Source of the DNA: Nitrospiraceae bacterium
GTDB lineage: Bacteria; Nitrospirota; Nitrospiria; Nitrospirales; Nitrospiraceae
Length of the DNA stretch: 64,000 bases
NCBI GenBank assembly: GCA_019637075.1
Contig: JAHBWI010000008.1
Location: 62,001-126,000, forward strand
Direction of reading: 5' to 3'
The notes below the pieces were generated by a model. That model had not been told where the DNA came from and made no database searches. It saw only the letters and a program-made list of their open reading frames with translations. Each line of letters opens with the position of its first letter. Within the stretch, counting starts at the first letter, position 1. A program made the translations under genes and the position numbers. Below, piece after piece: positions 17,143-43,274 of the stretch.

Positions 17143-17187
17143 AAAAATAAAAAGCGTCCTCCCCCCTTGTGATCGGGAGGAGGACGC
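17143..17187 (-). terminator. Second leader terminator upstream of nirC
   Basis: On the minus strand a stem GCGTCCTCC paired with GGAGGACGC, extended inward, is followed by TTTTTATTTTT. Its 5' arm contains the 3' arm of ANTAR hairpin P2 of unit 2, so forming P2 should prevent the terminator. It ends about 38 bases before the nirC start. Confidence 0.9.
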
Positions 17188-17251
17188 CTTTGTCCTCGAC
17201 GGCACCGGGATGACCGGGCCCCTATAGTGCTGCGCCGACGTCGCTGCCGGC
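17180..17251 (-). promoter_or_regulatory. ANTAR two-hairpin target, unit 2 (nirC leader)
   Basis: P1 (17251-17234): stem GCCGGC, loop AGCGAC, stem GTCGGC. P2 (17197-17180): stem GAGGAC, loop AAAGGC, stem GTCCTC. Both hexaloops have A at position 1 and G at 4 and a closing C-G pair, as described for RNA bound by ANTAR antiterminators. The P2 3' arm is also the start of the terminator stem. Confidence 0.85.
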
Positions 17252-17253
17252 TG

Positions 17254-17299
17254 AAAATAAGAAGGCGTCCGCCACTCCCGAGAGAATGACGGACGCCTT
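17254..17299 (-). terminator. First leader terminator between glnA and nirC
   Basis: A stem of at least 10 bp (AAGGCGTCCG with CGGACGCCTT) is followed by CTTATTTT on the minus strand. The 5' arm overlaps the loop and 3' arm of P2 of unit 1. Confidence 0.85.
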
Positions 17300-17359
17300 T
17301 GTCCGTTTACGTATATAGGTGAGAGTCAGTCGAGGCGCCATTGCCTCCCGTCACTCACC
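17289..17359 (-). promoter_or_regulatory. ANTAR two-hairpin target, unit 1 (glnA-nirC spacer)
   Basis: P1 (17347-17332): GAGGC, loop AATGGC, GCCTC, with an outer stem GGTGAG/CTCACC (17359-17354 with 17323-17318). P2 (17306-17289): ACGGAC, loop AAAGGC, GTCCGT. Both loops have A1 and G4. Together with unit 2 it makes two antitermination gates in series. Confidence 0.85.
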
Positions 17360-26156: not shown

Positions 26157-26259
26157 AACAAGCTCTGGGCTATCAGCGATCAGATCTCAGCTTCCACGCC
26201 GCAGGAGCACGTCTTCGCACCGGGGCTGGTAGCCGACGGCTGCGACAGCTACTTCGGAT

Positions 26260-26307
26260 AAAAAAAAACGCCCTCTGACCCAGGAGGCCCCTGAGCCGGA
26301 GGACGTC
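26260..26307 (-). terminator. Leader terminator upstream of nadE
   Basis: On the minus strand a long, slightly imperfect stem (about 16-17 bp, beginning ACGTCCTC and closing GAGGGCGT) has a GGCCT loop and is followed by nine T. Its 5' arm includes the 3' arm of hairpin P2. Confidence 0.88.
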
Positions 26308-26359
26308 GTTGTCCTTGTTCGTCTGTATCAAAACGTACGTTGGAGACTCCATTGTCTCC
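26300..26359 (-). promoter_or_regulatory. ANTAR two-hairpin target in nadE leader
   Basis: P1 (26359-26342): GGAGAC, loop AATGGA, GTCTCC. P2 (26315-26300): AGGAC, loop AACGAC, GTCCT. Both loops have A1 and G4 with a C-G closing pair. P2 and the terminator stem exclude each other. Confidence 0.85.
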
Positions 26360-26373
26360 CAAAACGTGGTGCT

Positions 26374-26403
26374 GGTATAGCATTCCGCCTTGCGGAGAGT
26401 CAA
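26374..26403 (-). promoter_or_regulatory. Promoter of the nadE leader
   Basis: TTGACT (26403-26398), 18-base spacer, TATACC (26379-26374). Start of RNA is predicted near 26367, a few bases before P1. The same layout occurs at the porin leader. Confidence 0.65.
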
Positions 26404-26473
26404 TCAAATTTTCCTCGATCTTCTCAACGAAACCATGCAGTTGGGTGTAGGGCTTGTGCTACACTACCGCCCC

Positions 26474-27354: not shown

Positions 27355-28215
27355 TCAGTAGCGCCGCAACACCGGCATCGACAGGCCGAACAGCGCCATG
27401 CGTGTGCGCCCCCACAGTATCGCCTGTGCCTGGGCCAATATCGGAGCGGATCGCGCCATGAGCTTGACGACCAGGCCCGGCATAGAAGGTTCGCTGACTC
27501 CGGCCAGCAGGTCGCTCTCCATCCCCTCCAACCTCACCGCGAGATCTTCCCGAAGCTCAGCCCATCGCGAGCCTTCCACCTTGTCGCTCAGCACGAACAA
27601 TGAGGCCACGTAGTCCCAGTCGCGCGGCAGCGTGCCGACGGTATCGGGCGTGAGATGAAACCGTTCGACGACCGATCCTCCCGATGCAGTGCTGAGACGA
27701 ATCTCATTGTCGTAGGTCTCAAACGCCCAACGCTCCGGCTTGGCGATCCTGCCTGACGCCATTGCATCCCACAGCAACAGGGTCGAGCCGGGAGCAAGGT
27801 CCACCTGGATCGATTGACTGAAGCGGGAGCCGGCAAAGGGAATCGTGCCTTCCGGCATCCACTCCAACCGAGCTCCTGGTCCGACCGAACAACGAACCGA
27901 TTGCAGCGCCGGCTCGGATTGACTGCGATAGACTCGATTGGCGGAGGGACTCGTTATCACCACGTGTGCGTCGGCATGGAGTGTCGCTTCAACCGACAGC
28001 TGGTCCCCTCCCACGAGCCCCCCGGAAGGATTGACCAACCAGACCACTGCGACACCACTTTCATCGAGATAGGTCGGGGGGAAATGATGCCACGGGCTGG
28101 TACACGAGGACTGAGTCAAGACGGTTCGCGCGCCGACTCGTTCAAAGTCATAGCGTAGAAGGCCCTGACGCCCCACCGTTGTCGTGAGGACACCCTCTTG
28201 AGCAGAAAACGGCAT
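27355..28215 (-). CDS. ureD: Urease accessory protein UreD (UreH)
   Basis: A 286-aa scaffold of the UreDFG complex that delivers nickel to apo-urease. Beta-rich sequence with family marks: TSPWHHFPPTYLDESGVAVV, NPSGGLVGGDQLSVEATLHA, ITSPSANRVYRSQ and EWMPEGTIPFAGSRF. ATG 28215 has GAGGGAG upstream; the ORF's earlier start at 28248 has none. Last gene of the urea cluster, 98 bases after ureG, and tail-to-tail with the lipoprotein gene ending at 27346. Confidence 0.94.
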   Translation of the reverse strand: MPFSAQEGVLTTTVGRQGLLRYDFERVGARTVLTQSSCTSPWHHFPPTYLDESGVAVVWLVNPSGGLVGGDQLSVEATLHADAHVVITSPSANRVYRSQSEPALQSVRCSVGPGARLEWMPEGTIPFAGSRFSQSIQVDLAPGSTLLLWDAMASGRIAKPERWAFETYDNEIRLSTASGGSVVERFHLTPDTVGTLPRDWDYVASLFVLSDKVEGSRWAELREDLAVRLEGMESDLLAGVSEPSMPGLVVKLMARSAPILAQAQAILWGRTRMALFGLSMPVLRRY

Positions 28216-28313
28216 GGACGGACTCCCTCGAATCTTGAATGACCGCAATCACGTGAGGCCTACGGGATACGAATCACGAACGACGCGTCACGGAGAGCGG
28301 ATTGCTCGTCCGA

Positions 28314-28985
28314 TTAGTGACGGTGCGAGTGGGAGAGGACCAGGCCCGTGACCCACTCGACGACTCGATCGAGCCCCTCACCGGTTTTCAGGTTGGTGAA
28401 GAGGAACGGCGAAGCGCCGCGCATTTTTCGGCTGTCGCGGTCCATGACGCCGAGGTCCGCACCCACCAGCGGCGCGAGGTCGGTCTTGTTGATGACGAGC
28501 AGGTCCGAGCGGGTGATGCCTGGCCCGCCTTTCCGCGGGATCTTGTCGCCGGCCGCGACGTCGATGACGTAAATCACCTTATCGACCAACTCTGGGCTGA
28601 AGGTTGCCGCCAGGTTGTCTCCCCCGCTCTCCACGAACATCAATTCGACGTCTGGATGGGATTCCAACAGATCGTCCAATGCCGCTTGATTGTGGGAGGC
28701 GTCCTCGCGAATCGCCGTATGCGGGCACCCGCCGGTTTCAACCCCCAGAATTCTGTCTTGCGGCAAGGCCCCCCGACGGGTCAGGAACTCCGCATCCTCC
28801 TTCGTAAAGATGTCGTTCGTCACCACCGCCAGGCTGTAGCGATCCCGCAATTGCCGACAGAGCGCCTCGACCAGCGCCGTCTTACCGGAACCGACCGGCC
28901 CCCCGACACCGATGACGGGAATGTGCTTGGAGCGAGCCAGTGTCGTCCGGCCGCTTCCACAGAAATGTTCGTCTTCGCGATGCAT
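28314..28985 (-). CDS. ureG: Urease accessory GTPase UreG
   Basis: A SIMIBI-class GTPase carrying nickel to urease. 223 aa. P-loop [13 protein letters not shown], the Cys-Pro-His metal site in [15 protein letters not shown], switch [16 protein letters not shown] and base-recognition [13 protein letters not shown]. The C-terminus ends in HSHRH, a small extra metal-binding tail. GGAG precedes ATG 28985. No ureE is present in this cluster, so UreG and its His tail may do more of the nickel handling (inference). Confidence 0.96.
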
Positions 28986-28993
28986 GCTTAACT

Positions 28994-29146
28994 CCGGAGC
29001 TTATAGCTGATGGCCTATGGCGTACGCAGGAACGAAAGCCGACAGATTCTTCTCCTCGTCCGGACCATGGGCGATTCACCCTGCGCGATCAGCGCTTACC
29101 TCCGCTTGTGCCATACGCTAGTTGCCATCAGCCATTAGCTCCTAAA
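28994..29146. repeat. Imperfect inverted repeat between ureF and ureG
   Basis: The arm near 28994 (GGAGCTTATAGCTGATGGC) is inverted around 29146 (GCCATCAGCCATTAGCTCC), with GGCGTAC/CATACGC further in. It overlaps the last 12 bases of ureF coding sequence. Possibly a small mobile or structured element; no ORF. Confidence 0.55.
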
Positions 29147-29821
29147 AAGACGTGATTCCAACCGGCTGTGGCGCATGGCGTAGATGTCATGCACCGGCGA
29201 CCAGGATCGCAGGACGTTCCGCTGCGCCGCCCTCCGGCCGACGCTCCCGATCACCGGCAGCCAGCTGTCCAGAAGCCGCTGCCCTTCTCGTTGCCCGATC
29301 GGCAACAGTTTCATCGCAGCGGCGACAAACCCAGTCGCGCACTGGTACAGCCAGGCGGCGATCGTGGGGGCTTTTTCCCAGCCTGCCGCAGCAAGCGTAA
29401 GCCCGACACAAATCGCCGCATGACCGGGGCTCGTACCGGCTTCGACGGCAGCCAGATACTCGGCCAGCAAAGGCGCAGGCTCTTCCTGGTCTACTGCGAT
29501 CCGAATGACCTGACGACCCATTTGGCGACTTGCCTGCCTGGTCTCACGGCCGAGCTTCATCGCATCGAGTTCACGATCCACCGTGATCAGCACATCCAGG
29601 GTCCCGGCCACAAACGCCTCATGCGCCAACCCCACTGCCACCGCCTCGCGTTCCCCCATGCCGGTCGTCAAGGCTTCGACGACGAAGCGAGACAATTCCT
29701 CCCCATTCTTGACCGAGCCCCCCTGCACGGCCGCCTCCAACCCGGACGAAAACGCAAATCCTCCGGAGGGAAAAAAGCTGTCGACGAAACGGAGCCCGGT
29801 CAGCAGCGATCGCGTGTTCAT
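29135..29821 (-). CDS. ureF: Urease accessory protein UreF
   Basis: A 228-aa all-helical protein that bridges UreD and UreG during nickel insertion. Family marks: LRFVDSFFPSGGFAFSSGLE near the N-terminus, GMGEREAVAVGLAHEA, SPGHAAICVGLTLAAAGW and AAMKLLPIGQREGQRLL. The C-terminus (RHSRLESRLFRS) matches the conserved basic tail. Separated from ureC by a repeat element rather than tightly coupled. Confidence 0.94.
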   Translation of the reverse strand: MNTRSLLTGLRFVDSFFPSGGFAFSSGLEAAVQGGSVKNGEELSRFVVEALTTGMGEREAVAVGLAHEAFVAGTLDVLITVDRELDAMKLGRETRQASRQMGRQVIRIAVDQEEPAPLLAEYLAAVEAGTSPGHAAICVGLTLAAAGWEKAPTIAAWLYQCATGFVAAAMKLLPIGQREGQRLLDSWLPVIGSVGRRAAQRNVLRSWSPVHDIYAMRHSRLESRLFRS

Positions 29822-29845
29822 CGTATGTTTGCTCTTATCCTCAAC

Positions 29846-30075
29846 GGATGCTCAAAATGACTTGCCAACTACGCCGCAGGGTGCGCGATACGAGGATTAA
29901 CGAGCATCATGTTTGCGCGCGCCGGCGAGACGGTAAGCCGGCCGGTTCGTGTATGAGCCGGAGGCGTATCGGTTCCCACCCACCCCGAGCCGTCAAGACA
30001 GCTCGTACTCCGTCTGGGGTACGTTGAGGATGCGTTCAAGGCAAGAACGATGCTGGGCAACGTTTTCAGCAGCCG
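29846..30075. repeat. Dispersed intergenic repeat, copy 1 (ureC-ureF)
   Basis: Begins GGATGCTCAAAATGACTTGCC and ends GTTTTCAGCAGCC; carries the shared core GGTACGTTGAGGATG and an AGAACGATGCTGGGCAACG end. At about 230 bases it is longer than the sister copies and seems to hold an internal insertion rich in GCCGG. Confidence 0.6.
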
Positions 30076-31803
30076 TCAAAACAAGAAATACCGCTGCGCC
30101 ATCGGCAACTCCCCCACCGGCTCACACCTCAACAACACGCCATCCGCCCTGACCTCATACGTTTCCGGGTCGACTTCGATCTGCGGCAGCGCATCATTCA
30201 ACTTGAGATCGCGCTTGCCGATGCCTCGACAGCCCTTCACAGCCGCCACCCGCTTTTGCAGCCCCAACCGCTCGGTAATCCCTCGCTCCAGGGCCTGCTG
30301 GGATAGAAACGTCAGGCTCGTTCCAAACGGCGCCCGCCCAAAGTTCCCGAACATGGGCCTCGTGAGCACCGGTTGCGGAGTCGGGATCGAGGCATTCGGG
30401 TCACCCATCGCGGCCGACAGCGGAAACCCGCCTTTGAGGACGATCTCGGGCTTCACGCCGAAGAAGGCCGGCTTCCAAAGCACGAGGTCGGCCAGTTTTC
30501 CGACTTCCACCGATCCTACTTCATGGGCAATGCCGTGCGCGATGGCAGGGTTGATCGTGTACTTGGCCACGTAGCGCCGTGCGCGCCAATTGTCATGCTG
30601 CCCGGCCGACGCTTCAACTCCACGCTCGGAAAGATGCCCCCGTTGCAGTTTCATCTTATGGGCGGTCTGCCAGGTCCGGATGATCACTTCGCCCACACGC
30701 CCCATGGCCTGCGAATCGGACGACATGATGCTGATCGCGCCCATATCGTGCAGGATATCCTCGGCCGCAATCGTCTCACGGCGGATACGCGACTCGGCAA
30801 AGGCGATATCTTCCGGCACGCGCGGGTTCAGATGATGACAGACCATGAGCATGTCGAGATGCTCATCCATCGTATTGACCGTGAACGGCATGGTGGGATT
30901 CGTGGAGGAGGGCAAGACGTTCGGCTGGCCACAGACTTTGATGATGTCCGGAGCATGTCCCCCACCCGCCCCTTCCGTATGGAAGGAGTGGATCGTTCGC
31001 CCTTTGAAAGCCTTGATCGTATCTTCCACAAAACCGGCTTCGTTCAAGGTGTCGGTGTGGATCGCAACCTGTACGTCGTATCGATCAGCGACGCTAAGGC
31101 AACAGTCGATTGCAGCCGGCGTCGTCCCCCAATCCTCATGGAGTTTGAGTCCGATGGCGCCGGCTTCGACTTGTTCATCCAACCCTTCCGGCAACGATGA
31201 GTTGCCCTTGCCCAGAAATCCCAGATTGATCGGGAATCCGTCCGCCGCTTCCAACATCCGGTGGATGTTCCAAGGACCGGGGGTACAGGTCGTCGCGTTC
31301 GTGCCGGTGACGGGACCGGTTCCGCCGCCGATGAGTGTCGTCAGGCCGTTCGCAAGCGCTTCGGTGATGATCTGCGGACAAATGAAATGGATATGCGTAT
31401 CGATTCCGCCTGCCGTCACGATCTTCCCTTCGGCGGACAACACCTCAGTCCCCGCACCCACCTCCATGCCCTTCGTGACCCCGTCCATCAGGTCCGGGTT
31501 GCCGGCCTTGCCGATCCCCACGATGCGGCCGTCGCGAATGCCGATATCGGCCTTCACCACCCCCCACCAGTCGACGATGATCGCGTTGGTGATCACCAGG
31601 TCCAGCGCACCCTTGGCTCTGGTCGCGGCAGGGGACTGCCCCATGCCGTCCCGGATTACCTTGCCCCCACCGAACTTGGCTTCTTCTCCCGGCAGGGTGA
31701 GGTCGCGGGTGATTTCGATCAGGAGGCCCGTATCGGCCAAGCGAATGCGGTCGCCGACGGTGGGGCCGTAGAGATCGTTGTATTGACGGCGAGACAGTTT
31801 CAT
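30076..31803 (-). CDS. ureC: Urease alpha subunit (catalytic)
   Basis: Hydrolyses urea to ammonia and carbamate; cytosolic nickel enzyme. 575 aa with a full family layout. Seen: [10 protein letters not shown] (first Ni ligands), the carbamylated Lys in GLKLHEDWG, the [15 protein letters not shown] ligand region, [13 protein letters not shown] (mobile flap with active His) and [12 protein letters not shown] (Asp ligand). It ends with the typical RYFLF. ureB lies 52 bases upstream. It supplies ammonium for assimilation and, in nitrifier communities, for export to ammonia oxidisers (known for Nitrospira moscoviensis, inferred here). Confidence 0.98.
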
Positions 31804-31855
31804 CGTTCATCGGCTGCTGAAATCAGCCGCTCTCCTTTCTCCAACAACCAAGCCA

Positions 31856-32302
31856 CTAGGAGGACTTCTTGGCCGTGAACCCTAACTGGCGAGCCCGCTC
31901 CAAGGCCTGTTGTCTCACGGCCGGGTCATCCAATCGGCCGTTCACCAAGCCATTGATGCCGTAGGCGATGCGATTGCCGCCAAGCGCAACGAGCATCACA
32001 CGCTTGGCTTCGCCCGGCTCGAACCGCACGGCCGTCCCTGCGGGGACGCACAAACGAAATCCGTAGGCCCGATCACGATCGAATTTGAGCGCACGATTCG
32101 CCTCAAAGAAATGACAATGCGAGCCGACCTGGATCGGCCGATCTCCCGTATTGGACACCGTCAGCTCGATCGTCTGCCGGCCATTCAATGCCGTCACATC
32201 GCCTTCGCCGAGAATGATTTCGCCGGGGATGATCGTGTCGGCCTGTGCCGATCCTTTCAGGGCACGTTTCGCCTTCATCGACTTTTTGGCTGTGGCTCCC
32301 AT
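31856..32302 (-). CDS. ureB: Urease beta subunit
   Basis: A 148-aa structural subunit. An N-terminal basic extension ([19 protein letters not shown]) precedes the family core [38 protein letters not shown], the [20 protein letters not shown] stretch and [15 protein letters not shown]. The core is normal; the first ~25 residues are longer than in many UreB, so the true start could be internal, but no better ATG is evident. Confidence 0.95.
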
Positions 32303-32359
32303 TTCATATCCTCTCCACGCAACAGACCGTACTCAACATCGACACCTGCTCGCCGGTAG

Positions 32360-32662
32360 TCACCGAATCGGTTCATGCACCGTGACCAGCTTCGTCCCGT
32401 CCGGAAACGTCCCCTCGACCTGCAATTCCGGAATCATTTCCGCCACGCCCGGCATGACGTCTTTCCTTTTGAGCAACGTTGCGCCGTACGACATCAACTC
32501 CGAGACGGTCTTGCCGTCGCGAATGCCCTCCAGGATTTCAGCCGTGATGTATGCCACGGCCTCGGGATGATTAAGTTTCAGGCCTCGCTTCCGACGATCC
32601 TTCGCCAGATTGGCCGCCACATAGATCAACAACTTTTCCTGTTCACGCGGTGTCAGGTGCAT
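32360..32662 (-). CDS. ureA: Urease gamma subunit
   Basis: A 100-aa subunit, the family norm. [20 protein letters not shown] opens the protein, followed by [20 protein letters not shown] and the C-terminal [18 protein letters not shown], all conserved. Separate gamma, beta and alpha genes in this order are the bacterial arrangement. First of the ureABC block. Confidence 0.97.
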
Positions 32663-33457: not shown

Positions 33458-34168
33458 CTACACCGTCAAATGCTGCCTCACCATTTCTGCGCTAAGCTCG
33501 TCTTTTTTTCCCGCCGCCATGACCGCCCCTTTGGCCATGACGACATAACTATCCGCCAGCCGCGCAGCGAAGTGAAGGCCCTGTTCGACCAGCACAATGG
33601 CAAACCGGCGAGCCGTCTTGAAGCCGATGATCACGTCTTCGATCTGATCGACGATCGACGGCTGGATGCCTTCCGTCGGTTCATCGAGCAAGAGCACTTT
33701 CGGGCTCGACAGGATCGCCCGGCCAATAGCGAGTTGTTGTTGCTCTCCACCGCTCAACACACCGCCCGGCCGCTCGAGAATTTGCGTGAGCTTGGGGAAC
33801 AATGTGTACACCTCGTCGAACGCCGCTTTTTCGGTCATGCCGTTGGACGACGTTCCGCGCGCCCAATATCCCAGTTTCAAGTTTTCGCGCACCGACAAAT
33901 GCGGAATGATCTCGCGTCCCTGAGGCACATAAGCCAGACCGCGCTTGGCGCGACGATCGGTCGGGGCTTTCGTAATATCCGTTCCGTCAAAGACCACCTG
34001 CCCGCTACGCACCGGCAGCAGACCCATGATGGCCTTAAGCGTGGTCGATTTGCCGACGCCGTTACGACCCATCACGCATGCCACTTGCCCCGCCTCGATC
34101 TGGAACGACACGTTGCGCAGAATGTGGCTTTCGCCGTAATAGACGTTGACCTTGTCAAGTTGTAGCAT
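33458..34168 (-). CDS. urtE: Urea ABC transporter ATP-binding protein UrtE
   Basis: A 236-aa LivF-type ATPase of the urea importer. Walker A GRNGVGKST, Q-loop at YVPQGREIIPHL, ABC signature LSGGEQQQLAIGRAI and Walker B VLLLDEPTEGI. It pairs with UrtD on the UrtBC permease. Separated from urtD by a repeat element of the dispersed family. Confidence 0.95.
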   Translation of the reverse strand: MLQLDKVNVYYGESHILRNVSFQIEAGQVACVMGRNGVGKSTTLKAIMGLLPVRSGQVVFDGTDITKAPTDRRAKRGLAYVPQGREIIPHLSVRENLKLGYWARGTSSNGMTEKAAFDEVYTLFPKLTQILERPGGVLSGGEQQQLAIGRAILSSPKVLLLDEPTEGIQPSIVDQIEDVIIGFKTARRFAIVLVEQGLHFAARLADSYVVMAKGAVMAAGKKDELSAEMVRQHLTV

Positions 34169-34191
34169 CGTAAGTATTGACTACCTCAAAA

Positions 34192-34311
34192 GGATGTTCA
34201 AAAGGCTCTCCGGCGAGGCCGCAGGCAAGAGAAGACCGGAGACGTACCCTTGCGGTACGTTGAGGATCTTGTCGAGCCGAGAACGAAGCTGGAGGGACTT
34301 TTCAACATCCT
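34192..34311. repeat. Dispersed intergenic repeat, copy 2 (urtD-urtE)
   Basis: About 120 bases with near-perfect terminal inverted repeats: AGGATGTTCAAAAG against CTTTTCAACATCCT (13 of 14). It contains CGGTACGTTGAGGATC and GAGCCGAGAACGAAGCTGG, shared with copies 1 and 4. Confidence 0.75.
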
Positions 34312-34312
34312 G

Positions 34313-35080
34313 TTACGCATGCGCCACTTTCTGGCGCCCAAGATAAATCTCTCTCACCCGCTCGTCCGCCTGCACCTTGTCCACCGTGCCTTCGCAGATC
34401 ACCGTGCCTTCGTGCAAGACCGTCACGATCCGCGCGATCTGGCGAACGAACTCCATATCGTGCTCGATCACCACGATGGCATGTTTCTCGGCGAGCGACT
34501 GCAGTAGCAGACCGGTCTGCTCCGTTTCCTTGTCCGTCATCCCCGCAACCGGTTCGTCCACCAGCAAGAGCAACGGATCCTGCAGGATGACCATGCCGAT
34601 CTCGAGCCACTGCTTCTGTCCGTGCGAGAGGGCGCCCGCGCGCGTCTTCGCCACGTCGCGCAAGCCGATCGTATCCAAGGCCTCGTTGATGCGTTCGCGC
34701 TCCGCCGCCGTGGACTGCCCGGTCAGGGTCGTCCACACCCCGCGGCTCGGACGGCTCAACGACAGATCTAGATTCTCCCACACCGTCAGGTTCGCGTAGA
34801 TCGAGGGCGCCTGAAACTTGCGGCCGATGCCCAGTTGGGTGACCTCATGCTCCCGCAATCCCACCAAATCGGTGTCCTTCCCGAAGATGACTCGCCCCGC
34901 GGCAGGCTTGGTTTTGCCGCAAATGACGTCCAACAATGTGGTCTTTCCCGCTCCGTTGGGGCCGATCACCACGCGCAGTTCGCGGTGGTTCACGATGAAG
35001 TTTAAGTTATTGAGCGCCTTAAAGCCGTCATAGTCGACGACCACCCCTTCAAGGTAGATGATGGAGCCCTGTTCGGTCAT
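34313..35080 (-). CDS. urtD: Urea ABC transporter ATP-binding protein UrtD
   Basis: A 255-aa LivG-type ATPase. Walker [33 protein letters not shown] signature variant LSHGQKQWLEIGM and Walker B LLLVDEPVAGM. The His in place of Gly in the signature is typical of UrtD. Its ATG overlaps the urtC stop (ATGA), so the two are translationally coupled. Confidence 0.95.
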   Translation of the reverse strand: MTEQGSIIYLEGVVVDYDGFKALNNLNFIVNHRELRVVIGPNGAGKTTLLDVICGKTKPAAGRVIFGKDTDLVGLREHEVTQLGIGRKFQAPSIYANLTVWENLDLSLSRPSRGVWTTLTGQSTAAERERINEALDTIGLRDVAKTRAGALSHGQKQWLEIGMVILQDPLLLLVDEPVAGMTDKETEQTGLLLQSLAEKHAIVVIEHDMEFVRQIARIVTVLHEGTVICEGTVDKVQADERVREIYLGRQKVAHA

Positions 35081-36246
35081 GCCGCCTTACGCCCCTCGAC
35101 CTTCGTCGCTCGATGACGTGAAGCCCACGCCGACGCTGCTGCGCTCAGCTGCTTCGACAGGCCCATCACACCGTCGGGGAACAACAGCACCACCGCTACG
35201 AATAGCCCGCCCAGCATGAACGGCCAGAGCTCTGGAAAGTAATTCGTCAGGATGCTGCGCCCCAGGTTCACGCCCACGGCCCCTACGATGGCCCCGACCA
35301 GGCTGGCGCGGCCGCCGACCGCCACCCAGATCACCATTTCCAGAGAAGGCAACACCCCGATCTGCGCCGGCGTGATGATTCCCACCTGTGGTACGTACAG
35401 CATACCCGCCAGCCCGGCCAAGGCGGCCGACACGCCGAATACAAACACCTTATAGTTGGACGGCGCATAGCCCGAAAACCTCAACCGCTGTTCGCTATCC
35501 CGCACCGCAATCAGGACGCGACCCGCCCGGGAAGAGATGATCCAGCGGCAGAGCAGGTAGGCACCGACCAGGCACAATACTGTGACCACGTATAGCGCCC
35601 GTTGCGTCCCGGGGTCGGAGAGGCGGAACCCCAGCAGCTGTTTGAAGTCGGTCAGCCCGTTGGTCCCGCCCAGATTCGATTCGTTTCGGTTTAAGACGAG
35701 CCAGGCCATCATGGCCAGCGCTTGAGTGATAATGGCGAAATAGACACCTTTGATCCGACTGCGAAAAGCCAGGAAGCCGAAAACGGCGGCGCAGAAGGTC
35801 GGGACAAGCACCCCTGCCAGCAAAGCCACCGGAAAACTCTGGAAGGGCTTCCAGAACAGCGGTAGTTCCTTCACCTGATTCCACACCATGAAGTCCGGCA
35901 GCACGCTTCCATACACACTTTCCCCGCCGATGGAGAGCATCAGGTGCATGCCCATACAGTAGGCACCCAATCCGAAGAACACGCCCTGCCCCAGGCTGAG
36001 GATACCGGTATAGCCCCAGATGAGATCGAGCCCCAGCGCGAGAATCGCGAAGGCCAAGAACTTCCCGAATCGGTTCAACGCGAAATCCGAGATGTGCAGC
36101 CACGAGCCTTCCGGCGGGAGCACATTAAGTAACGGTAGGACAAACAACAGCACGAACCCCGTCACCCAGAATGCCGCTCCCTCATGGCCCGCCTTCTCCC
36201 CGCCGTTCACCATCGTCTCGTTCACTCCTGGTGCGTTGACCTTCAT
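35077..36246 (-). CDS. urtC: Urea ABC transporter permease UrtC
   Basis: A 389-aa LivM-type inner-membrane permease with about ten hydrophobic helices. Family marks: DLIWGYTGILSLGQGVFFGL (about 94-113), NLGGTNGLTDF, GRVLIAVRDSEQRLRFSGY (cytoplasmic coupling loop) and VAVGGRASLVGAIVGA. Works with UrtB as the channel. A repeat element lies between it and urtB. Confidence 0.95.
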   Translation of the reverse strand: MKVNAPGVNETMVNGGEKAGHEGAAFWVTGFVLLFVLPLLNVLPPEGSWLHISDFALNRFGKFLAFAILALGLDLIWGYTGILSLGQGVFFGLGAYCMGMHLMLSIGGESVYGSVLPDFMVWNQVKELPLFWKPFQSFPVALLAGVLVPTFCAAVFGFLAFRSRIKGVYFAIITQALAMMAWLVLNRNESNLGGTNGLTDFKQLLGFRLSDPGTQRALYVVTVLCLVGAYLLCRWIISSRAGRVLIAVRDSEQRLRFSGYAPSNYKVFVFGVSAALAGLAGMLYVPQVGIITPAQIGVLPSLEMVIWVAVGGRASLVGAIVGAVGVNLGRSILTNYFPELWPFMLGGLFVAVVLLFPDGVMGLSKQLSAAASAWASRHRATKVEGRKAA

Positions 36247-36279
36247 GAAATGCTGCAGCCCAGGTTGGCTGCACTAGGT

Positions 36280-36410
36280 TGGCAATCGATCAACATGCCT
36301 ATTCCACAAGGCCGCAGCGAATGAGGGCGCTGAGGGCTATGCGGCGGATACGTTGAGGCGGCCGAATGACCGACAACGCAGTTGGAGAGCATTTTATCGG
36401 TTGATCAGGC
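36280..36410. repeat. Dispersed intergenic repeat, copy 3 (urtB-urtC), degenerate
   Basis: Shares AAGGCCGCAGCGAATGAGGG, a ACGTTGAGGCGGCCGA core and a GCATTTT end with the other copies, and is bounded by CGATCAACATGCC / CGGTTGATCAGGC. Boundaries are approximate, and the end may run into the 3' end of urtB. Confidence 0.5.
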
Positions 36411-37940
36411 ATCCGCATGGCGTCCCTTCACCGCAAACAAACCCGACGGCCTCCTCTGCAGGAACAGAATCACGAGCATCAAAATGATCACCTTTCCGAA
36501 GACGGCGCCCAGGCTCGGTTCCAAGAGCTTGTTGAGGCCCCCGATTCCGAGCGAGGCGATGATCGTCCCGGCCAGTTTGCCGACCCCGCCCGTGACCACG
36601 ACCATGAATGAGTCCACGATGTAGTTTTGTCCCAGTCCCGGCTCGACGTTGCCCACGAGGGTCAAGGCCCAGCCCGCCACCCCCGCAAGCCCGGAGCCGA
36701 ATGCAAACGTGTAGGCATCAACTGCCCGCGTCGGGATACCGAGACAGGCGCTCATGCTGCGGTTCTGGGTGACGGCTCGAATGCGGAGCCCGAGGCTGGA
36801 ACGAAACAGCAGCAGATAAATGCCCGTCACGCAGACGATGGACAAACCGAGGATGAACAACCGATTGAATGGCAGATAGACGCCGACCATGGCCTGGATG
36901 CCGCCGCTGAGCCAGCCCGGTGCGGCAACCGCGGTGAGGTCGCCGAACGCGACACGAGCGGCCTGAATCATGATCAAGCTCACCCCCCATGTCGCCAACA
37001 TAGTTTCCAGCGGACGGCCGTACAGAAATCGGATCACGGTCCATTCCAGCACGAGACCGCAAAGCGCAGCGGCCAGAAACGACGCCGGCAGCGCCGCCAG
37101 ATAGTACCCGTCGAACCAGCCCTCGGGGAACCAGGCCTTGAAGGCCTGCTGCACGAGAAACGTCGCGTAGGCGCCGATCATGATCAGTTCTCCATGGGCC
37201 ATGTTGATGACGCCCATGAGGCCAAATACGATCGCCAGGCCCAACGACATGATCAGCAGAATCGAACTCAGGCTGAGGCCGCGGAACAGCGTCTCGAACG
37301 CAGTGGCCCAATCACCCCAGGTTTCAATCTGATCGATGGCCGCGGTCGCCGCTCGCCCGAGCGACTGCTCCTTTTCACCCGCGCCCGGTTCACCGGCTGC
37401 GTGAACCAGCTCTTTTAGCATCGGCACGGCGTTTTGACTCCGCAGGTCGCCGAGCCTCGCCACAGCCGTCAATCGGACCGCAGGGTTGCCGGAGGCCAGC
37501 TTCAGCAGTTGGATCGCCTCCTCCATGCTGTAGCGGACCCAGCGATGGCTCTCCTTGATCACCGCCGCCTCGAGCCACGGGATGGCGGTGCGACGCCCGC
37601 TCATTCCGAGATCGACCGCAGCCGAACGGCGGACGTCCGGATCGGCGCTCCCCAGGTTGGCTCGATGTTTCCAGGCATCGGCAATCGGCTTGAGGGCTTG
37701 GCGAAGGCTGCGGTCCGCATCGGCACGAATCTCATCCAACCGCGGCAACAGCGAGAGGTCCCCCTGCTCGATCAGGAAGGCCACCGCGGCCTCGCGGCGG
37801 CCTTCCGCTTCCGCTCTCAACCCGGTGAAAGCTTCTTCCAGCGTTGCGGGCGACAACAGGGATTCGACCTGTTCCGCCGCCCACCCCACCGCACCGGTGA
37901 AGAGCCACACCCACGTACACAGAACCAGCCGAAGCCCCAT
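36405..37940 (-). CDS. urtB: Urea ABC transporter permease UrtB
   Basis: 511 aa. A signal peptide (LRLVLCTWVWLFTGAVGWAA) and a soluble N-terminal part of about 190 residues with HEAT-like alpha repeats (DVRRSAAVDLGMSGRRTAIP, AVRLTAVARLGDLRSQNAVP) precede a LivH-type permease. The permease includes GLAIVFGLMGVINMAHGELI, AVTQNRSMSACLGIPTRAVD and FGSGLAGVAGWAL. The extended N-terminus is usual for UrtB. Start 37940 has GAGGGGC before it; a GTG at 37955 is the alternative. Confidence 0.94.
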   Translation of the reverse strand: MGLRLVLCTWVWLFTGAVGWAAEQVESLLSPATLEEAFTGLRAEAEGRREAAVAFLIEQGDLSLLPRLDEIRADADRSLRQALKPIADAWKHRANLGSADPDVRRSAAVDLGMSGRRTAIPWLEAAVIKESHRWVRYSMEEAIQLLKLASGNPAVRLTAVARLGDLRSQNAVPMLKELVHAAGEPGAGEKEQSLGRAATAAIDQIETWGDWATAFETLFRGLSLSSILLIMSLGLAIVFGLMGVINMAHGELIMIGAYATFLVQQAFKAWFPEGWFDGYYLAALPASFLAAALCGLVLEWTVIRFLYGRPLETMLATWGVSLIMIQAARVAFGDLTAVAAPGWLSGGIQAMVGVYLPFNRLFILGLSIVCVTGIYLLLFRSSLGLRIRAVTQNRSMSACLGIPTRAVDAYTFAFGSGLAGVAGWALTLVGNVEPGLGQNYIVDSFMVVVTGGVGKLAGTIIASLGIGGLNKLLEPSLGAVFGKVIILMLVILFLQRRPSGLFAVKGRHADA

Positions 37941-37992
37941 GCCCCTCACGCGCACACCTGCCTCATGCCGAGTGCCATCGATCTTCCACCCC

Positions 37993-39351
37993 TCAGACCT
38001 TCTTGTAGGTGCCTTGATGGTTGACCCAATCGCAGCCCTTCTCGGGGTTCGTGTATTCGCTCCAGGGTTCCGGTTTCACCAGACCCTTCGAGCGCCAGAC
38101 CACTTTCAACTGACCGTCCTTCAAAATCTCTCCGATGAGCACCGGCTTGTGCGTGTGTTGATTCGCTTCGTCCATCATGATTTCTCCGCCCGGCGCCAGG
38201 AACTTCTGGCCGTAGACCGCCTTGCGGACCACATCCACCTCGATACTGCCGGCTTTTTCGACGGCCTGCTTCCAGACATGCACGCCGAAATAGGCGGCTT
38301 CGATCGGATCGTCCGTGACGCGCTTGTCGCCGTCCGGTAGATTGTTCTTCTTGCAGTAGGCTTTGAAATTCGCCACGAACTGCTTGTTTTGCGGCGTGTC
38401 GACGCTCTGGTAATAGTTCCAGGCCGCCAAGTGGCCGACCAAGGCGGTCGTGTCCATCCCGCGCAACTCATCCTCGGCCACACTGAAGGCCATGATCGGC
38501 GCATCCTCCGCCCGCAGCCCCTGGTTGGCGAATTCTTTATAGAAGGGGACGTTGCTGTCGCCGTTGATCGTACTGATCACGCAGGCCCCGCCGCCCGCAG
38601 CGAATTTTTTGATCTTGCCGACGATCGTTTGATAGTCCTGGTGATGGAACGGCGTGTACTCCTCCATGATGTTCGCCGTCGGCACCCGCTTGGCGAGCAA
38701 CATGGCGCGGAGAATCTTATTCGTGGTCCGCGGGTACACGTAATCCGTTCCGAGCAGGTAGAACTTTTTGTGCCCGCCCCCTTCCTTGCTCATCAGGTAC
38801 TCGACGGCCGGCACTGCCTGCTGATTCACCGCGGCGCCCGTGTAGAAGACGTTGCGCGAGCACTCCTCCCCTTCATACTGCACGGGGTAAAACAACAGAC
38901 CGTTATTTTTTTCAAAGACCGGCAGCACGGACTTCCGGCTCACGGAGGTCCAACAGCCGAACACGACCGCCACCTTGTCCTGCACCAGCAACTGTTTGGC
39001 CTTTTCGGCAAAGAGGTCCCAGTTCGACGCCGGATCGACGATCACAGCCTTGAGCGGCCGTCCCAGCACGCCGCCTTTGGCATTGATCTCTTCGATAGCC
39101 ATCGAGACCACGTCTTTCAACGATACTTCGCTGATCGCCATCGTGCCGCTCAACGAATGGAGGATCCCGACTTTGATCGGCTCCTTGTCTGCGGCGTAGG
39201 AGAGCGCCCATTGTCCGAGGTTGCCCAGCAAGGCTGCGACTCCGACACCCGCGACAGTCCGCGAGCTGTGCAGGAGGAATTCCCTTCGTGAGGAAGCTGC
39301 CGTAGGCTGGTCGGTCGTGGACGCCGTCGCGATCGTCTGTTTCGTATTCAT
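37993..39351 (-). CDS. urtA: Urea ABC transporter substrate-binding protein UrtA
   Basis: A 452-aa periplasmic urea receptor. Tat-type export signal: SRREFLLHSSRTVAGVGVAA with the twin Arg. The mature part is a LivJ-like type I binding protein: KVGILHSLSGTMAISEVSLK, VFGCWTSVSRKSVLPVFEKN, YPVQYEGEECSRNVFYTGAA and the C-terminal KPEPWSEYTNPEKGCDW. AAAGGAG precedes ATG 39351; an upstream in-frame start at 39408 lies in the repeat and is unlikely. First gene of urtABCDE, downstream of the porin. Confidence 0.95.
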   Translation of the reverse strand: MNTKQTIATASTTDQPTAASSRREFLLHSSRTVAGVGVAALLGNLGQWALSYAADKEPIKVGILHSLSGTMAISEVSLKDVVSMAIEEINAKGGVLGRPLKAVIVDPASNWDLFAEKAKQLLVQDKVAVVFGCWTSVSRKSVLPVFEKNNGLLFYPVQYEGEECSRNVFYTGAAVNQQAVPAVEYLMSKEGGGHKKFYLLGTDYVYPRTTNKILRAMLLAKRVPTANIMEEYTPFHHQDYQTIVGKIKKFAAGGGACVISTINGDSNVPFYKEFANQGLRAEDAPIMAFSVAEDELRGMDTTALVGHLAAWNYYQSVDTPQNKQFVANFKAYCKKNNLPDGDKRVTDDPIEAAYFGVHVWKQAVEKAGSIEVDVVRKAVYGQKFLAPGGEIMMDEANQHTHKPVLIGEILKDGQLKVVWRSKGLVKPEPWSEYTNPEKGCDWVNHQGTYKKV

Positions 39352-39382
39352 TATCAAGCTCCTTTCTCGTGACTCACGAGAA

Positions 39383-39501
39383 GGACGCGCCAAATGACTT
39401 GCCGACATGGTCGCAGGCGGGAAACGCCGGAAGCGTACCCTTGGAGTACGTTGAGGACTGTTTCGAGCCGAGAACGATGTCGGCGAGCATTTTCAGCGTC
39501 C
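39383..39501. repeat. Dispersed intergenic repeat, copy 4 (porin-urtA)
   Basis: Ends are inverted: GGACGCGCCAAATGACTTGCC against GGCGAGCATTTTCAGCGTCC. The core GAGTACGTTGAGGACTG and GAGCCGAGAACGATG are shared with copies 1 and 2. About 119 bases. Confidence 0.75.
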
Positions 39502-39504
39502 ACA

Positions 39505-40800
39505 CTAGAAGTTGTACCAGGTGGAAATCATGAAATTGTCCCCATGAAACCGTTCGCCGGTCGACCATTCCGTCATGAGATGGTTCCATTCGAAGGACCC
39601 GTATAGGTCGCCCCAAATGTGCCGCACAGCCGTCAGGTAGGTCCGATGGTTGAGGACGTATTGCGTGTCGGCCCCTGCCGTCGTCCCCTTCAAGTCCTTG
39701 TTGAGCGGGTTGTCGAACCCGTAGCCCGCGATGAAGGTGTAGTCCTGGTTGTAGGCATAGTCGAGTTCACCCCAGCCGACGATTGTTCTGATGGGCGCGC
39801 CGGTCCCGAGATTACGCTCCTGGCCGAAACGGAAAAACTCGACACCCAAGGCCTGGCCATAGGCGACCTCTCCTGAGAACTTCAGTTGTTTCGTAATCGG
39901 CACGACCAACTCGCCGCCCACGAGATAGGAATTCACATCCCGCCCCGTCGGAATCGAGACCGGCGACGTGGGCGCCGCGCGATAATTGCGAAAGGCCGCA
40001 TTGAAGGCCGCCATGACACCCTGCATGTTCCCCGTGCCCTGATAGCCGAATCTGACGCCGACATAGGGCATTTGCACCGGATCGTTGAACGGCACTTCCG
40101 AGGCCCCGTTCCCGGCCGCCGGCCGGCGCGGAGTCTGTCCGCAGCAGGCGGAGAGGCCGCGTTCGAACCGCATGACCGTAATCAGGCCGTCGAAATTCTG
40201 ATTGAACTGATGCTTCAGGGTGACTTGCGGCAAACGCTGCCACAGGTTGCCGTTGTAGCCCATGATCGAAAAGTCGATCAGGTTGGGGTGGAGCGCCATG
40301 ATCGGCGTCCAGTCCATGCCCGCCGTGATGGTGGTCTTATTTTCGTTCGGCGAATATTTGACGTTCGCCAAGCGCAGACGGGGCGGGATGTTCCCCGCAT
40401 TGTCCGTTTGGCCATAGAAGTCGACTTCCACGACGCCGCTCAAGGTGTGTTTGCCGTCGGTCCGTTCGCCCTTGATGCCGAACACGCTGTAGCGCGGGTT
40501 CAGCGTGGTCGAGGCGTTGTTGCTTTTTCCGGCCGCGGTCGCGTAGCCGTTGAACTGATTCGGATCGAGAGGATTGTTGTTGCGGGTGCTGTAGATGCCG
40601 TCGAGTTCGATACGGCCGTAGGGAGTGATGCTGCCCTTCCCCTGCGACCCGAACATGGGGGAGATACATCCGCCGCAGATGATGCTGGGCGCGGAATCCT
40701 TCGTGCTTGCTTGATCTTCGGCTGTTGCCGTCCCGAGCGATCCGAGCGTCAGGATCGCCGAGAGGCATCCCAGACGCCATACCTTCCAATTGCTGAACAT
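39505..40800 (-). CDS. Outer-membrane porin of the urea cluster (urea/short-chain amide porin candidate)
   Basis: 431 aa with a signal peptide (VWRLGCLSAILTLGSLGTATA). The beta-barrel chain ends in WYNF, the C-terminal Phe expected for outer-membrane porins. Strands such as GSITPYGRIELDGIYS and HTLSGVVEVDFYGQT resemble Gram-negative trimeric porins. Two cysteine clusters are unusual: CGGC near the mature N-terminus and CCGQ in mid-chain. Nitrospira urea clusters are reported to carry an FmdC-like amide/urea porin; this is the likely equivalent. It is the first gene after the ANTAR leader, so the whole porin-urt-ure block may be gated there. Confidence 0.82.
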   Translation of the reverse strand: MFSNWKVWRLGCLSAILTLGSLGTATAEDQASTKDSAPSIICGGCISPMFGSQGKGSITPYGRIELDGIYSTRNNNPLDPNQFNGYATAAGKSNNASTTLNPRYSVFGIKGERTDGKHTLSGVVEVDFYGQTDNAGNIPPRLRLANVKYSPNENKTTITAGMDWTPIMALHPNLIDFSIMGYNGNLWQRLPQVTLKHQFNQNFDGLITVMRFERGLSACCGQTPRRPAAGNGASEVPFNDPVQMPYVGVRFGYQGTGNMQGVMAAFNAAFRNYRAAPTSPVSIPTGRDVNSYLVGGELVVPITKQLKFSGEVAYGQALGVEFFRFGQERNLGTGAPIRTIVGWGELDYAYNQDYTFIAGYGFDNPLNKDLKGTTAGADTQYVLNHRTYLTAVRHIWGDLYGSFEWNHLMTEWSTGERFHGDNFMISTWYNF

Positions 40801-40855
40801 GCGCCGCCCTCCTGGTTGACCACGGTAGTGCTACCGGAACCGTGAAGGGCCGAGC

Positions 40856-40903
40856 AAAAAAAAAAACGCCCTTCCGGTCCGTTCCATTGGACCAAAAGGA
40901 CGT
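40856..40903 (-). terminator. Leader terminator upstream of the urea porin
   Basis: A 15-bp stem with a few G-U pairs (ACGTCCTTTTGGTCC against GGACCGGAAGGGCGT), loop AATGGAAC, then eleven T on the minus strand. Its 5' arm starts inside hairpin P2. It ends 55 bases before the porin ATG. Confidence 0.92.
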
Positions 40904-40958
40904 CATTGTCCTTGGTGAATCTGTCGCGCGGTGAGCCTGGACGTCGTTGTCCTCGCTC
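40896..40958 (-). promoter_or_regulatory. ANTAR two-hairpin target in porin-urt-ure leader
   Basis: P1 (40958-40933): GAGC, tandem GA/AG, GGAC, loop AACGAC, GTCC, then GCTC. P2 (40913-40896): AAGGAC, loop AATGAC, GTCCTT. Both loops have A1 and G4 and a C-G closing pair. P2 and the terminator cannot form together. Confidence 0.88.
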
Positions 40959-40977
40959 CTGTCGCACGTGGACTCGA

Positions 40978-41007
40978 CGTATACCCCGCAGGGCTGGTCG
41001 CTGTCAA
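40978..41007 (-). promoter_or_regulatory. Promoter of the porin-urt-ure leader
   Basis: Perfect TTGACA (41007-41002), 18-base spacer, TATACG (40983-40978). RNA would start near 40971, about 13 bases before P1. Confidence 0.75.
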
Positions 41008-41093
41008 GCAGTTCTCGCAGTCTCGACGAGTCGGCGCACTTCCGCCGCGCTGTGCTACACTGAACTCCTTACGAGCTTACGGAGGGAGTGGGC

Positions 41094-42011
41094 ATGACAT
41101 CGCGATCGTGGACGGCGTCCATCATGACGTTGTGGCTTGGCCTGGCCGGCTGCATGGGAGGGCCGCAAGTCGACATGGTGATCGAAGAAACCCCGCGGAG
41201 CGCGGTCTCGTTGGAACGCATTCCTGACCGCACCTTCCAAGCCGCCCATCCGGTCCGACTGAGTCGGGACTTGGTGCAACGGGCCTTGCAAGGCATCGCG
41301 GTTCGCGACCGCAGCGGCATCGCGCAGACGTTCGGCTCGAGCGAGGCCCCCGTCATCGCGGCCTTCAGCGCGGAAGAGGCCGCACTCCTGGCACCAGGCA
41401 TCGCGGAAGCGCTGGCTCGCGCCGCCTCCGACCAACAGGTCGCGTTTCGGGTCCTTCAACCAAGCAGTTCGCTCACCCGCCCACGCACCGGCGCCGGCGT
41501 CGGTTCATCAGAATCGGTCGCAGCGGGAACCTCCCGGGAGATGACGGAAGGCAGCCTGTTCCTCTACGGCAGATCGATCTATGTCACGCTGCGAAGCTTC
41601 CGAAGCCGCGACGAGCGGCCTGACACGGTCAACATGCCCAATCGCAGGATCCCGGATCCGACGGGCCTGCAGCAGCGTGAAGTGGTCTTTGTGCCGCAAT
41701 CCGTGATGAGAGCCGACACTTATGCGCCGGCGTTCACGGCAGCGCAAGGTCTCACGACGCTCGTGTTGGATCAGGATCGCCTGGCAAGCGCTTCCCTCGG
41801 GCCAGCCCCTTCACCGGCAAGCCCTGCGGTCGCTGCGCCCGCTCCGGCCTCTCCGGCTGGAATGCCAGGCCAGACGCAGGCCGCGCCCGGCGGGGACCTT
41901 CAGCAAATTAAAGAAGACATGAAGAAAAAAGACACGGAGTTGGAAGAGTTGCGGAAGGAGCTACAGGAGATCAAGCGCCAACTGGGTGGACAAGGCACTC
42001 CGAAACGGTAG
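41094..42011 (+). CDS. Lipoprotein with C-terminal coiled coil, paralogue of the 26474 gene
   Basis: A 305-aa protein. Signal and lipobox: IMTLWLGLAGCMGG. Shared blocks with the 26474 protein: FQAAHPVRLSRDLVQRALQG, FSAEEAALLAPGIAEALARA, DQQVAFRV, then a Pro/Ala-rich linker and a coiled coil (LQQIKEDMKKKDTELEELRK, ELQEIKRQ). It is probably periplasmic, anchored in a membrane. A GGAGGGAG ribosome site precedes ATG 41094; the -10 11-mer TGTGCTACACT (41051-41061) is the same as at the paralogue. It is divergent from the porin leader and ends 3 bases before the stop of the ANTAR gene. Function unknown. Confidence 0.78.
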   Translation: MTSRSWTASIMTLWLGLAGCMGGPQVDMVIEETPRSAVSLERIPDRTFQAAHPVRLSRDLVQRALQGIAVRDRSGIAQTFGSSEAPVIAAFSAEEAALLAPGIAEALARAASDQQVAFRVLQPSSSLTRPRTGAGVGSSESVAAGTSREMTEGSLFLYGRSIYVTLRSFRSRDERPDTVNMPNRRIPDPTGLQQREVVFVPQSVMRADTYAPAFTAAQGLTTLVLDQDRLASASLGPAPSPASPAVAAPAPASPAGMPGQTQAAPGGDLQQIKEDMKKKDTELEELRKELQEIKRQLGGQGTPKR

Positions 42012-42014
42012 GCT

Positions 42015-43274
42015 CTAGGATCGATTCTTGTCGGCTCGCTCTTCGATTTCCCCCGCAAGCAGGATGGCTTCGGCGATTTCTCGCATGGATTTGCGAAGGT
42101 CCATGCTTTGGCGTTGAATCAACTTGAACGCCTCTTCCTCGGACAACCGCTTCGAGCGCATCAAGTAGCCTTTGGCGCGTTCCAACAGCTTCCTGACTTG
42201 CAAGGCTTCCTGCATTTCGAAAGACTTCTCCAGCAGCGTCGTATGCTCGATCGAAATAGCCGCCTGATTGGCGATCGCCTGCATGAGCTTCACGTCTTCG
42301 GGCGTGAACGTGTGGGGACGCGACGTGTAGGTATTGATCACCCCGATGGCCTTGTCGCGCACCAGCATGGGCACGGAGAGCAACGAGCAGAGGCCTTCCT
42401 TCCTCGCCATCTCCGGATACATGTAAGTCCCTTCCTTGGTCACGTCCGGCACGATGATCGGCCGGCGCTCCTGCACGGCCCGCCCACTGATGCTCTGTCC
42501 GATCTTGAGGTTCGGTTTTCGACGGTATTGCTCGCTCAAGCTTTGCGTCGCGCCGATCCGCAACTCGCCGGTGGTCTGATCCAACAGCATGATGGAACAG
42601 ATTTTCGATCCCATCATCTGTGCGGTCATCGTTACGATCAGCTGCAACACGTCATCCAACAGCCGGTTGGATGACACCGTCTCGGAGACCTGCGACAGCG
42701 TATCTAACTGAAGGGCCTTGCGGGTCATTTGGTCGTAAAGGCGCGCGTTCTCAATGGCCCCGCCGACCTGAGTCGCGATGGTGGACAGCAGCGCCAGCTC
42801 GTCCGGGCGATAGCGGCGCGAGCGCTTGTGCTGCACGTTGATGACGCCGACGACTTCCTGCTTGGTTAGAATGGGAACGGACACGAACGCCTGGTACCGG
42901 TCTTCAGGAAGGTTATGAAAAAACTTGAAGCGGGTGTCGTCGCTGGCGCTGTTCGGGATGACGACACGCGTCCGCTCGCGGGCCACCCATCCGGTGATGC
43001 CCTCGCCCATGCCGATCGTAATGCGCCCGATCAGTTTGGGATGCGGATTCTTCGAGGCCCGGAGTATCAACTCGTCCCGCCCTTCGGATAAGAGATACAG
43101 CAGGCAGGCGTCGGCCTTGGTGACCTCCACGACGATATCGACGATGTGCCGCAGCACCGCCTCCAAATCGAGCGTATTGCTGATGGATTCGCTGATCCGA
43201 TGCAGGACATCCACCTCACGGGACTTTTCCCGTAAGGCCTGTTCAAGCTGGGCAACCGTCCGTTTCGGTTCCAT
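42015..43274 (-). CDS. GAF-GAF-ANTAR transcription antiterminator
   Basis: A 419-aa cytosolic regulator. An N-terminal coiled coil (VAQLEQALREKSREVDVLHR) is followed by GAF1 (about 30-178: GMGEGITGWVARERTRVVIP, VSVPILTKQEVVGVINVQ) and GAF2 (about 195-345: IGQSISGRAVQERRPIIVPD, LSVPMLVRDKAIGVINTY). The ANTAR domain (about 357-411) has RKLLERAKGYLMRSKRLSEE, EAFKLIQRQSMDLRKSMREI and AEAILLA. ANTAR domains bind paired A1/G4 hexaloop hairpins in leader RNA and stop terminators forming. No receiver domain, so the signal should enter by the GAF domains (ligand unknown). The ORF is open 201 codons further upstream, but only inside aroB; AGGA precedes ATG 43274. It starts 8 bases after aroB. Confidence 0.92.
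   Translation of the reverse strand: MEPKRTVAQLEQALREKSREVDVLHRISESISNTLDLEAVLRHIVDIVVEVTKADACLLYLLSEGRDELILRASKNPHPKLIGRITIGMGEGITGWVARERTRVVIPNSASDDTRFKFFHNLPEDRYQAFVSVPILTKQEVVGVINVQHKRSRRYRPDELALLSTIATQVGGAIENARLYDQMTRKALQLDTLSQVSETVSSNRLLDDVLQLIVTMTAQMMGSKICSIMLLDQTTGELRIGATQSLSEQYRRKPNLKIGQSISGRAVQERRPIIVPDVTKEGTYMYPEMARKEGLCSLLSVPMLVRDKAIGVINTYTSRPHTFTPEDVKLMQAIANQAAISIEHTTLLEKSFEMQEALQVRKLLERAKGYLMRSKRLSEEEAFKLIQRQSMDLRKSMREIAEAILLAGEIEERADKNRS

Follow-up and report, generated by a model that had tools for sequence, protein, structure and literature searches.

The region ahead of an outer-membrane porin gene, on the minus strand of a 64-kb window (the whole stretch of Nitrospiraceae DNA analyzed here), appears to be a transcription attenuator worked by the neighboring GAF-GAF-ANTAR protein, a reading to which we assign a probability of roughly 0.88 from sequence comparison. 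The support computed for it consists of a conserved promoter, a covarying first hairpin (P1), the mutual exclusivity of a second hairpin (P2) and a terminator, a near-invariant G at position 4 of the hairpin loops (G4), and the co-occurrence of the leader with an ANTAR gene across the family.

Architecture of the leader upstream of the porin

Read along the minus strand from 41007 to 40801, the region is made up of TTGACA-N18-TATACG, two hexaloop hairpins with A1 and G4 in their loops, a terminator, a run of eleven T, and the porin gene. An earlier sequence-only reading had named these elements, and all of them are present where it placed them. The -35 element (TTGACA, 41002..41007) is similarly placed in nearly all relatives, while the -10 element (TATACG, 40978..40983), separated from it by an 18-nt spacer, appears in relatives as TATAAG, TATACA, or TATAGA. 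Transcription is predicted to start at 40971, 7 nt past the end of the -10 element, which agrees with the proposed distance of 13 bases to P1 provided that the P1 lower stem is counted (i.e., from 40958). Scored with a matrix derived solely from relatives, this promoter reaches 23.1 and ranks first over both strands of the 64 kb, and the promoter of the nadE unit discussed below (TTGACT-N18-TATACC, starting at 26403) ranks third. A generic promoter scan was blind to the porin-unit promoter because it demanded a final T in the -10 element. In most porin-class leaders, TTGACA and a TATA-like -10 element are found 28 to 33 nt ahead of the P1 loop, and in nadE-class leaders the promoter is mostly about 20 to 22 nt ahead of it. 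A nitrogen operon under sigma-54/NtrC control was considered and rejected, as the search for an upstream -24/-12 site found none scoring at least 9/11 near urt, ure, nadE, or nirC, and none inside the urt-ure block. No protein of the genome passes the curated NtrC cut-off, and many sigma-54 activators are encoded there.

The covariance model, built from 48 leaders, matches positions 40857-40958 of the minus strand, upstream of porin, urtABCDE, and ureABCFGD. The covarying P1 hairpin (40933..40958) is made up of GAGC and GCTC arms, an A.A/G.G internal loop, and the upper stem GGAC(AACGAC)GTCC (40952-40939), with A1 and G4 in its loop. P2 (AAGGAC(AATGAC)GTCCTT, 40896..40913), recovered by the hairpin scan, is the predicted antiterminator. 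The intrinsic terminator stem (40865..40904) borrows its 5' arm from P2, namely the last part of the loop and the 3' arm, and runs into the U tract of eleven T (40856..40866); the terminator described earlier is thus present, but with 16 predicted pairs rather than 15. The linker between P1 and P2 measures 25 nt between upper stems, or 19 nt when the P1 lower stem is counted, and fits the 2 to 25 nt found between the stems of ANTAR RNAs (PMC8164766). Both hairpins therefore carry the six-base A1/G4 loops of a dual-hexaloop ANTAR leader, and P2 overlaps the intrinsic terminator in the correct orientation.

Folding of the 127-nt leader gives a z of -4.7. When the 3' half of the terminator is left out, P1 and P2 form, and when it is included, the terminator wins. 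When the window was scanned for hexaloop hairpins overlapped by a terminator, exactly four places emerged, against zero in 20 dinucleotide-preserving shuffles. A plain hexaloop pattern allowing one mismatch was discarded; its counts were at chance level genome-wide, and therefore terminator-containing patterns and the covariance model were used. The sole Rfam match in the window at gathering score is 5_ureB_sRNA (31362-31653, plus strand, E 6e-20), antisense to the 5' part of ureC, which may merely mirror conserved ureC coding sequence.

The sequence-only reading had also described tandem GA/AG mismatches under a 4-bp P1 stem, unlike the other hairpins, and had suggested that these may tune affinity. 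The 4-bp stem is real, but the mismatch step is a 2x2 internal loop of A.A and G.G oppositions, which rules out tandem mismatches of the sheared G.A type. Below this loop GAGC/GCTC re-pairs and an additional outer helix closes. A four-pair stem is not unusual among relatives either, as uninterrupted P1 pairs range from 3 to 10 over 22 porin-class leaders, with 4 pairs in the urea-unit leader and three others and 3 pairs in one. EutV contacts just the closing three stem pairs (PMC8934654), all of which are intact here, and tuning of affinity by the internal loop is not supported.

In the read-through mRNA, a further hairpin (40806..40850, minus strand) is predicted to pair the porin Shine-Dalgarno sequence AGGAGG (40813-40808) with GCCCTTC in a C-rich segment (40850-40844), with a pairing probability of 0.98. 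Over 24 leaders, Shine-Dalgarno pairing probability averages 0.89, compared with 0.66 when the upstream part is shuffled. This hairpin could give translation of the porin a further control point.

Conservation across Nitrospirales

Across the family, the promoter is conserved together with P1, P2, and the terminator as one unit, and with the sole ANTAR gene of this genome lying next to it, the proposal of a promoter and an ANTAR-type antitermination leader ahead of porin-urt-ure has held up. The covariance model finds leaders in 110 of 172 Nitrospiraceae genomes and in a second family of the order, and has no match in the other orders sampled. Leader and ANTAR gene occur together in 101 of the 172 genomes, with the gene alone in 2, the leader alone in 9, and neither in 60 (p = 7e-34, a value computed with related genomes as independent). 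The nine leader-only genomes are mostly incomplete, G070 and G117 being 99% complete. At 40 loci of relatives the leaders precede the same units, and a reversed control of the first, stricter pattern gave 0 matches in every genome.

In a search that left the P2 loop unconstrained, G4 turned up in 102 of the 104 listed places, and position 1 read A 92 times and G 10 times (hand tally). The crystal structure of EutV shows G4 contacted and A1 not (PMC8934654), so a near-invariant G4 with A or G at position 1 is what contact at G4 would predict. The P1 stem has 54 double-change cells against 14 in shuffles, a count in which the inner pairs are partly selected, since the scans that collected the alignment demanded A1/G4 and a stem of at least 3 to 4 pairs; the outer P1 pairs were not demanded. 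The terminator stem is 97% paired (22 sequences), and in the porin class the sequence shared by P2 and terminator keeps both nearly invariant. Loop-to-loop distances in relatives are mostly 38 to 46, with extremes of about 31 and 54.

Urea units usually begin with a gene for an outer-membrane porin. Two porins that have no detectable sequence similarity to each other occur ahead of urtA behind the same leader, and a third type, BBP2 (PF07642), is found between leader and amtB in other genomes; the porin is exchanged and the leader stays. Unrelated porins stand first behind the same leader type at L130:14358-15728, L196:6680-8032, and L134:12610-13998. At L120 (13742-14294), a porin-class leader keeps P2 and terminator with no standard P1 found, and urtA matches there in fragments only. 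At L112 (424-816), L206 (1524-1934), and L114 (7126-7470), the porin leader is preceded by a small lipoprotein-like gene that has an ANTAR leader of its own. In the window, lipoprotein-like genes of one family lie on the plus strand at 41088-42011 and 26390-27346, divergent from and upstream of two leaders, and their homologues are likewise placed in relatives. The ure genes are inverted in some relatives, and urtA has no leader in some. In others (Nitrospira moscoviensis, L226), urea genes lack such a leader though the genome has an ANTAR gene; the gate is therefore not a universal feature.

The distribution in ammonia oxidizers differs by lineage. AmoA was found in 58 of the 172 genomes. In the genus g15, the ANTAR gene is found in none of 46 AmoA-positive genomes and AmoA in none of 14 ANTAR-positive ones, a pattern that may reflect one or a few losses, while in g17 the ANTAR gene is kept in 12 AmoA-positive genomes. 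The g15 ammonia oxidizers inspected (loci L177-L188) keep urtA, with no attenuator found before it. In two g15 genomes lacking the ANTAR gene (G101 and G052), the promoter before urtA is as strong as those of the gated operons; it is weaker in other g15 genomes. The AmoA-positive G070 is an exception in that the nadE leader is kept and an ANTAR gene was not detected. Many ammonia-oxidizing relatives have lost the switch.

Regulator, regulon, and extent of the transcript

The 4.06-Mb genome has one ANTAR gene (PF03861), which is the nearest upstream same-strand neighbor of the porin leader. It encodes a GAF-GAF-ANTAR protein of 419 aa (42015..43274, minus strand), with a likely start at ATG 43274, just past aroB. 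The first ~200 codons of a longer, 620-aa reading frame overlap aroB in another frame; this frame was rejected and the start therefore taken as 43274. Six of the 11 RNA-contact residues of EutV are identical (R142, K143, K149, E160, M172, and R175), two show conservative changes (K147R and Y164F), and two are altered (R168Q and R177S). A further change, N173D, also occurs in Rv1626 and in NasR, an ANTAR antiterminator of nitrogen genes that has its own sensor domain and no kinase. The genome thus encodes an ANTAR protein in which the RNA-contact residues are mostly kept relative to EutV (PMC8934654). Its GAF domains are similar to the ones in PtsP and NifA.

The genome has four ANTAR leaders, none more than 27 kb from the sole ANTAR gene, and the covariance model matches no others. 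The second (26259..26363, minus strand) precedes nadE-DUF6733-amtB-glnK-glnD-glnA, while the third (17256..17352, minus strand) and fourth (17145..17255, minus strand) form a tandem before a nirC-type FNT transporter gene, cynS, and nirA. The tandem attenuators (17145-17352) lie in series about 110 nt apart, and the tandem recurs at several loci of relatives. Because the same leader precedes the nadE and nirC units, it is not specific to urea but serves a nitrogen-status regulon, and ammonium limitation would be a likelier inducer than urea.

In the attenuator model, protein binding, the signal, the direction of control, and transcript length are what we infer. RNA polymerase would start near 40971 at a strong, apparently standing promoter of the sigma-70 type. 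By default, the nascent RNA would fold into the terminator (40904-40865 plus U11) and transcription would stop after about 115 nt. The active ANTAR protein would bind the P1 and P2 hexaloops; its GAF domains would sense nitrogen scarcity, a signal suggested by the regulon, which is a nitrogen-scarcity set, and by the likeness to PtsP and NifA. With P2 held closed, the terminator would lose its 5' arm, permitting read-through into porin, urtABCDE, and probably ureABCFGD. The same protein would act on the nadE-amtB-glnK-glnD-glnA leader and the two serial attenuators of nirC-cynS-nirA, so that a single regulator would open urea, ammonium, and nitrite/cyanate assimilation together.

All genes from porin through ureD lie on the minus strand over 13.4 kb, as the earlier estimate of about 13 kb of same-strand urea genes behind the leader had it. 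The first product (39505..40800, ATG 40800) is a 431-aa protein with a signal peptide and a C-terminal Phe, probably an outer-membrane porin according to a low-confidence beta-barrel model. The model made from a 13-sequence alignment has a pLDDT of 47 and its best fold matches are OmpF/OmpC-type porins; the one built without an alignment (pLDDT 30) was unusable, and Pfam has no family for the protein. The urea ABC transporter follows (33458..39408; urtA 37993-39408, urtB 36405-37955, urtC 35077-36246, urtD 34313-35080, and urtE 33458-34168), and then the ure genes (27355..32662; ureA 32360-32662, ureB 31856-32302, ureC 30076-31803, ureF 29135-29821, ureG 28314-28985, and ureD 27355-28248).

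The attenuator may be real and yet govern the porin only, perhaps with urtA, while urt and ure are expressed mainly from their own promoters. Such promoters could fit into the intergenic stretches ahead of urtA (97 nt), behind urtE (340 nt), and behind ureC (254 nt). Ammonia oxidizers have a promoter directly before urtA, and the ure-like genes of G045 (L129) are encoded on the opposite strand, showing that the unit does not always include ure. However, the conserved-promoter matrix places no site in an internal gap above rank 50 in the window (rank 328 in the gap after urtE), the block contains no sigma-54 site and no strong terminator-like site on the minus strand, and the order porin-urtABCDE-ureABCFGD behind the leader is kept in many relatives. 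We consider separate expression rather unlikely. As neither a same-class promoter nor a sigma-54 site scores well in the gaps, one continuous transcript from porin to ureD is the simplest reading and a plausible one.

Two further explanations would remove the ANTAR protein from the mechanism. The leader might be a small-molecule riboswitch or another terminator/antiterminator beside which the ANTAR gene lies by coincidence, and any terminator overlapping an alternative hairpin would indeed fold alike. This is very improbable, as no Rfam riboswitch or attenuator family matches the leader at gathering score, the conserved positions are those of ANTAR RNAs (G4, A or G at position 1, two hexaloops, and narrow spacing), and leader and ANTAR gene tend to occur together among the 172 genomes. 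Still less credit can be given to an ordinary constitutive operon whose hairpins insulate it by ending upstream transcription. The upstream same-strand gene is the ANTAR gene, whose transcript could be stopped here, but the conserved promoter between that gene and the terminator would then have its own transcript stopped, and P1 and the alternative P2 pairing are conserved.

Implications and comparison with known ANTAR systems

Beyond this locus, we tentatively propose, at somewhat short of even odds, that GAF-GAF-ANTAR is the general nitrogen-status switch of Nitrospirales, acting through RNA leaders only in place of NtrC/sigma-54 and opening urea, ammonium, cyanate, and nitrite assimilation together. 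Ammonia-oxidizing lineages would have dismantled it wholly or partly, freeing urea uptake from nitrogen hunger; their members without regulator and attenuator offer a natural experiment. Urea-cleaving nitrite-oxidizing Nitrospira can feed ammonia oxidizers, and such feeding would hinge on the gate, i.e., on their own nitrogen need. For organisms whose nitrogen regulation is scarcely described, there is now a named regulator with its targets and with specific bases to mutate.

ANTAR antitermination of nitrogen genes was already known (Ramesh et al. 2012), and the Nitrospira leader and regulon are a new instance of it. That study had reported multi-operon ANTAR nitrogen regulons including urea and ammonium transporters, and no characterized example of a GAF-ANTAR architecture existed in 2012. 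No paper joining Nitrospira and the ANTAR domain was found in the literature searched; an unlabeled earlier entry for Nitrospira defluvii leaders in the supplementary tables of Ramesh et al. is possible. Among the closest known systems are multi-operon ANTAR nitrogen regulons such as that of Desulfotomaculum acetoxidans, in which 13 leaders are spread over six units (PMC3369931). Both systems place one leader type over genes for P-II, ammonium and urea transporters, nitrite, and glutamine synthetase, with several leaders per unit. In contrast, the present regulon belongs to Nitrospirales nitrifiers, has porin-led units and normally one ANTAR gene per genome, and is absent in many ammonia oxidizers.

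The proposed antitermination mechanism is that of EutV, NasR, and AmiR (PMC3369931, PMC8934654). In NasR-nasF attenuation of Klebsiella oxytoca (PMC7496416), an ANTAR protein that carries its own sensor domain and works without a kinase antiterminates nitrogen genes, as proposed here, although NasR is a nitrate sensor and the present regulator is GAF-GAF. The eut leaders of EutV/EutW in Enterococcus faecalis (PMC3369931, PMC8934654) share the two hexaloop hairpins, each with G4, the overlap of P2 and terminator, and an ANTAR domain with most of the RNA-contact residues. The regulator here differs in that it carries two GAF domains but lacks a receiver domain, an architecture that does not imply a histidine kinase partner; the stems are longer, and the targets are those of nitrogen assimilation rather than ethanolamine.
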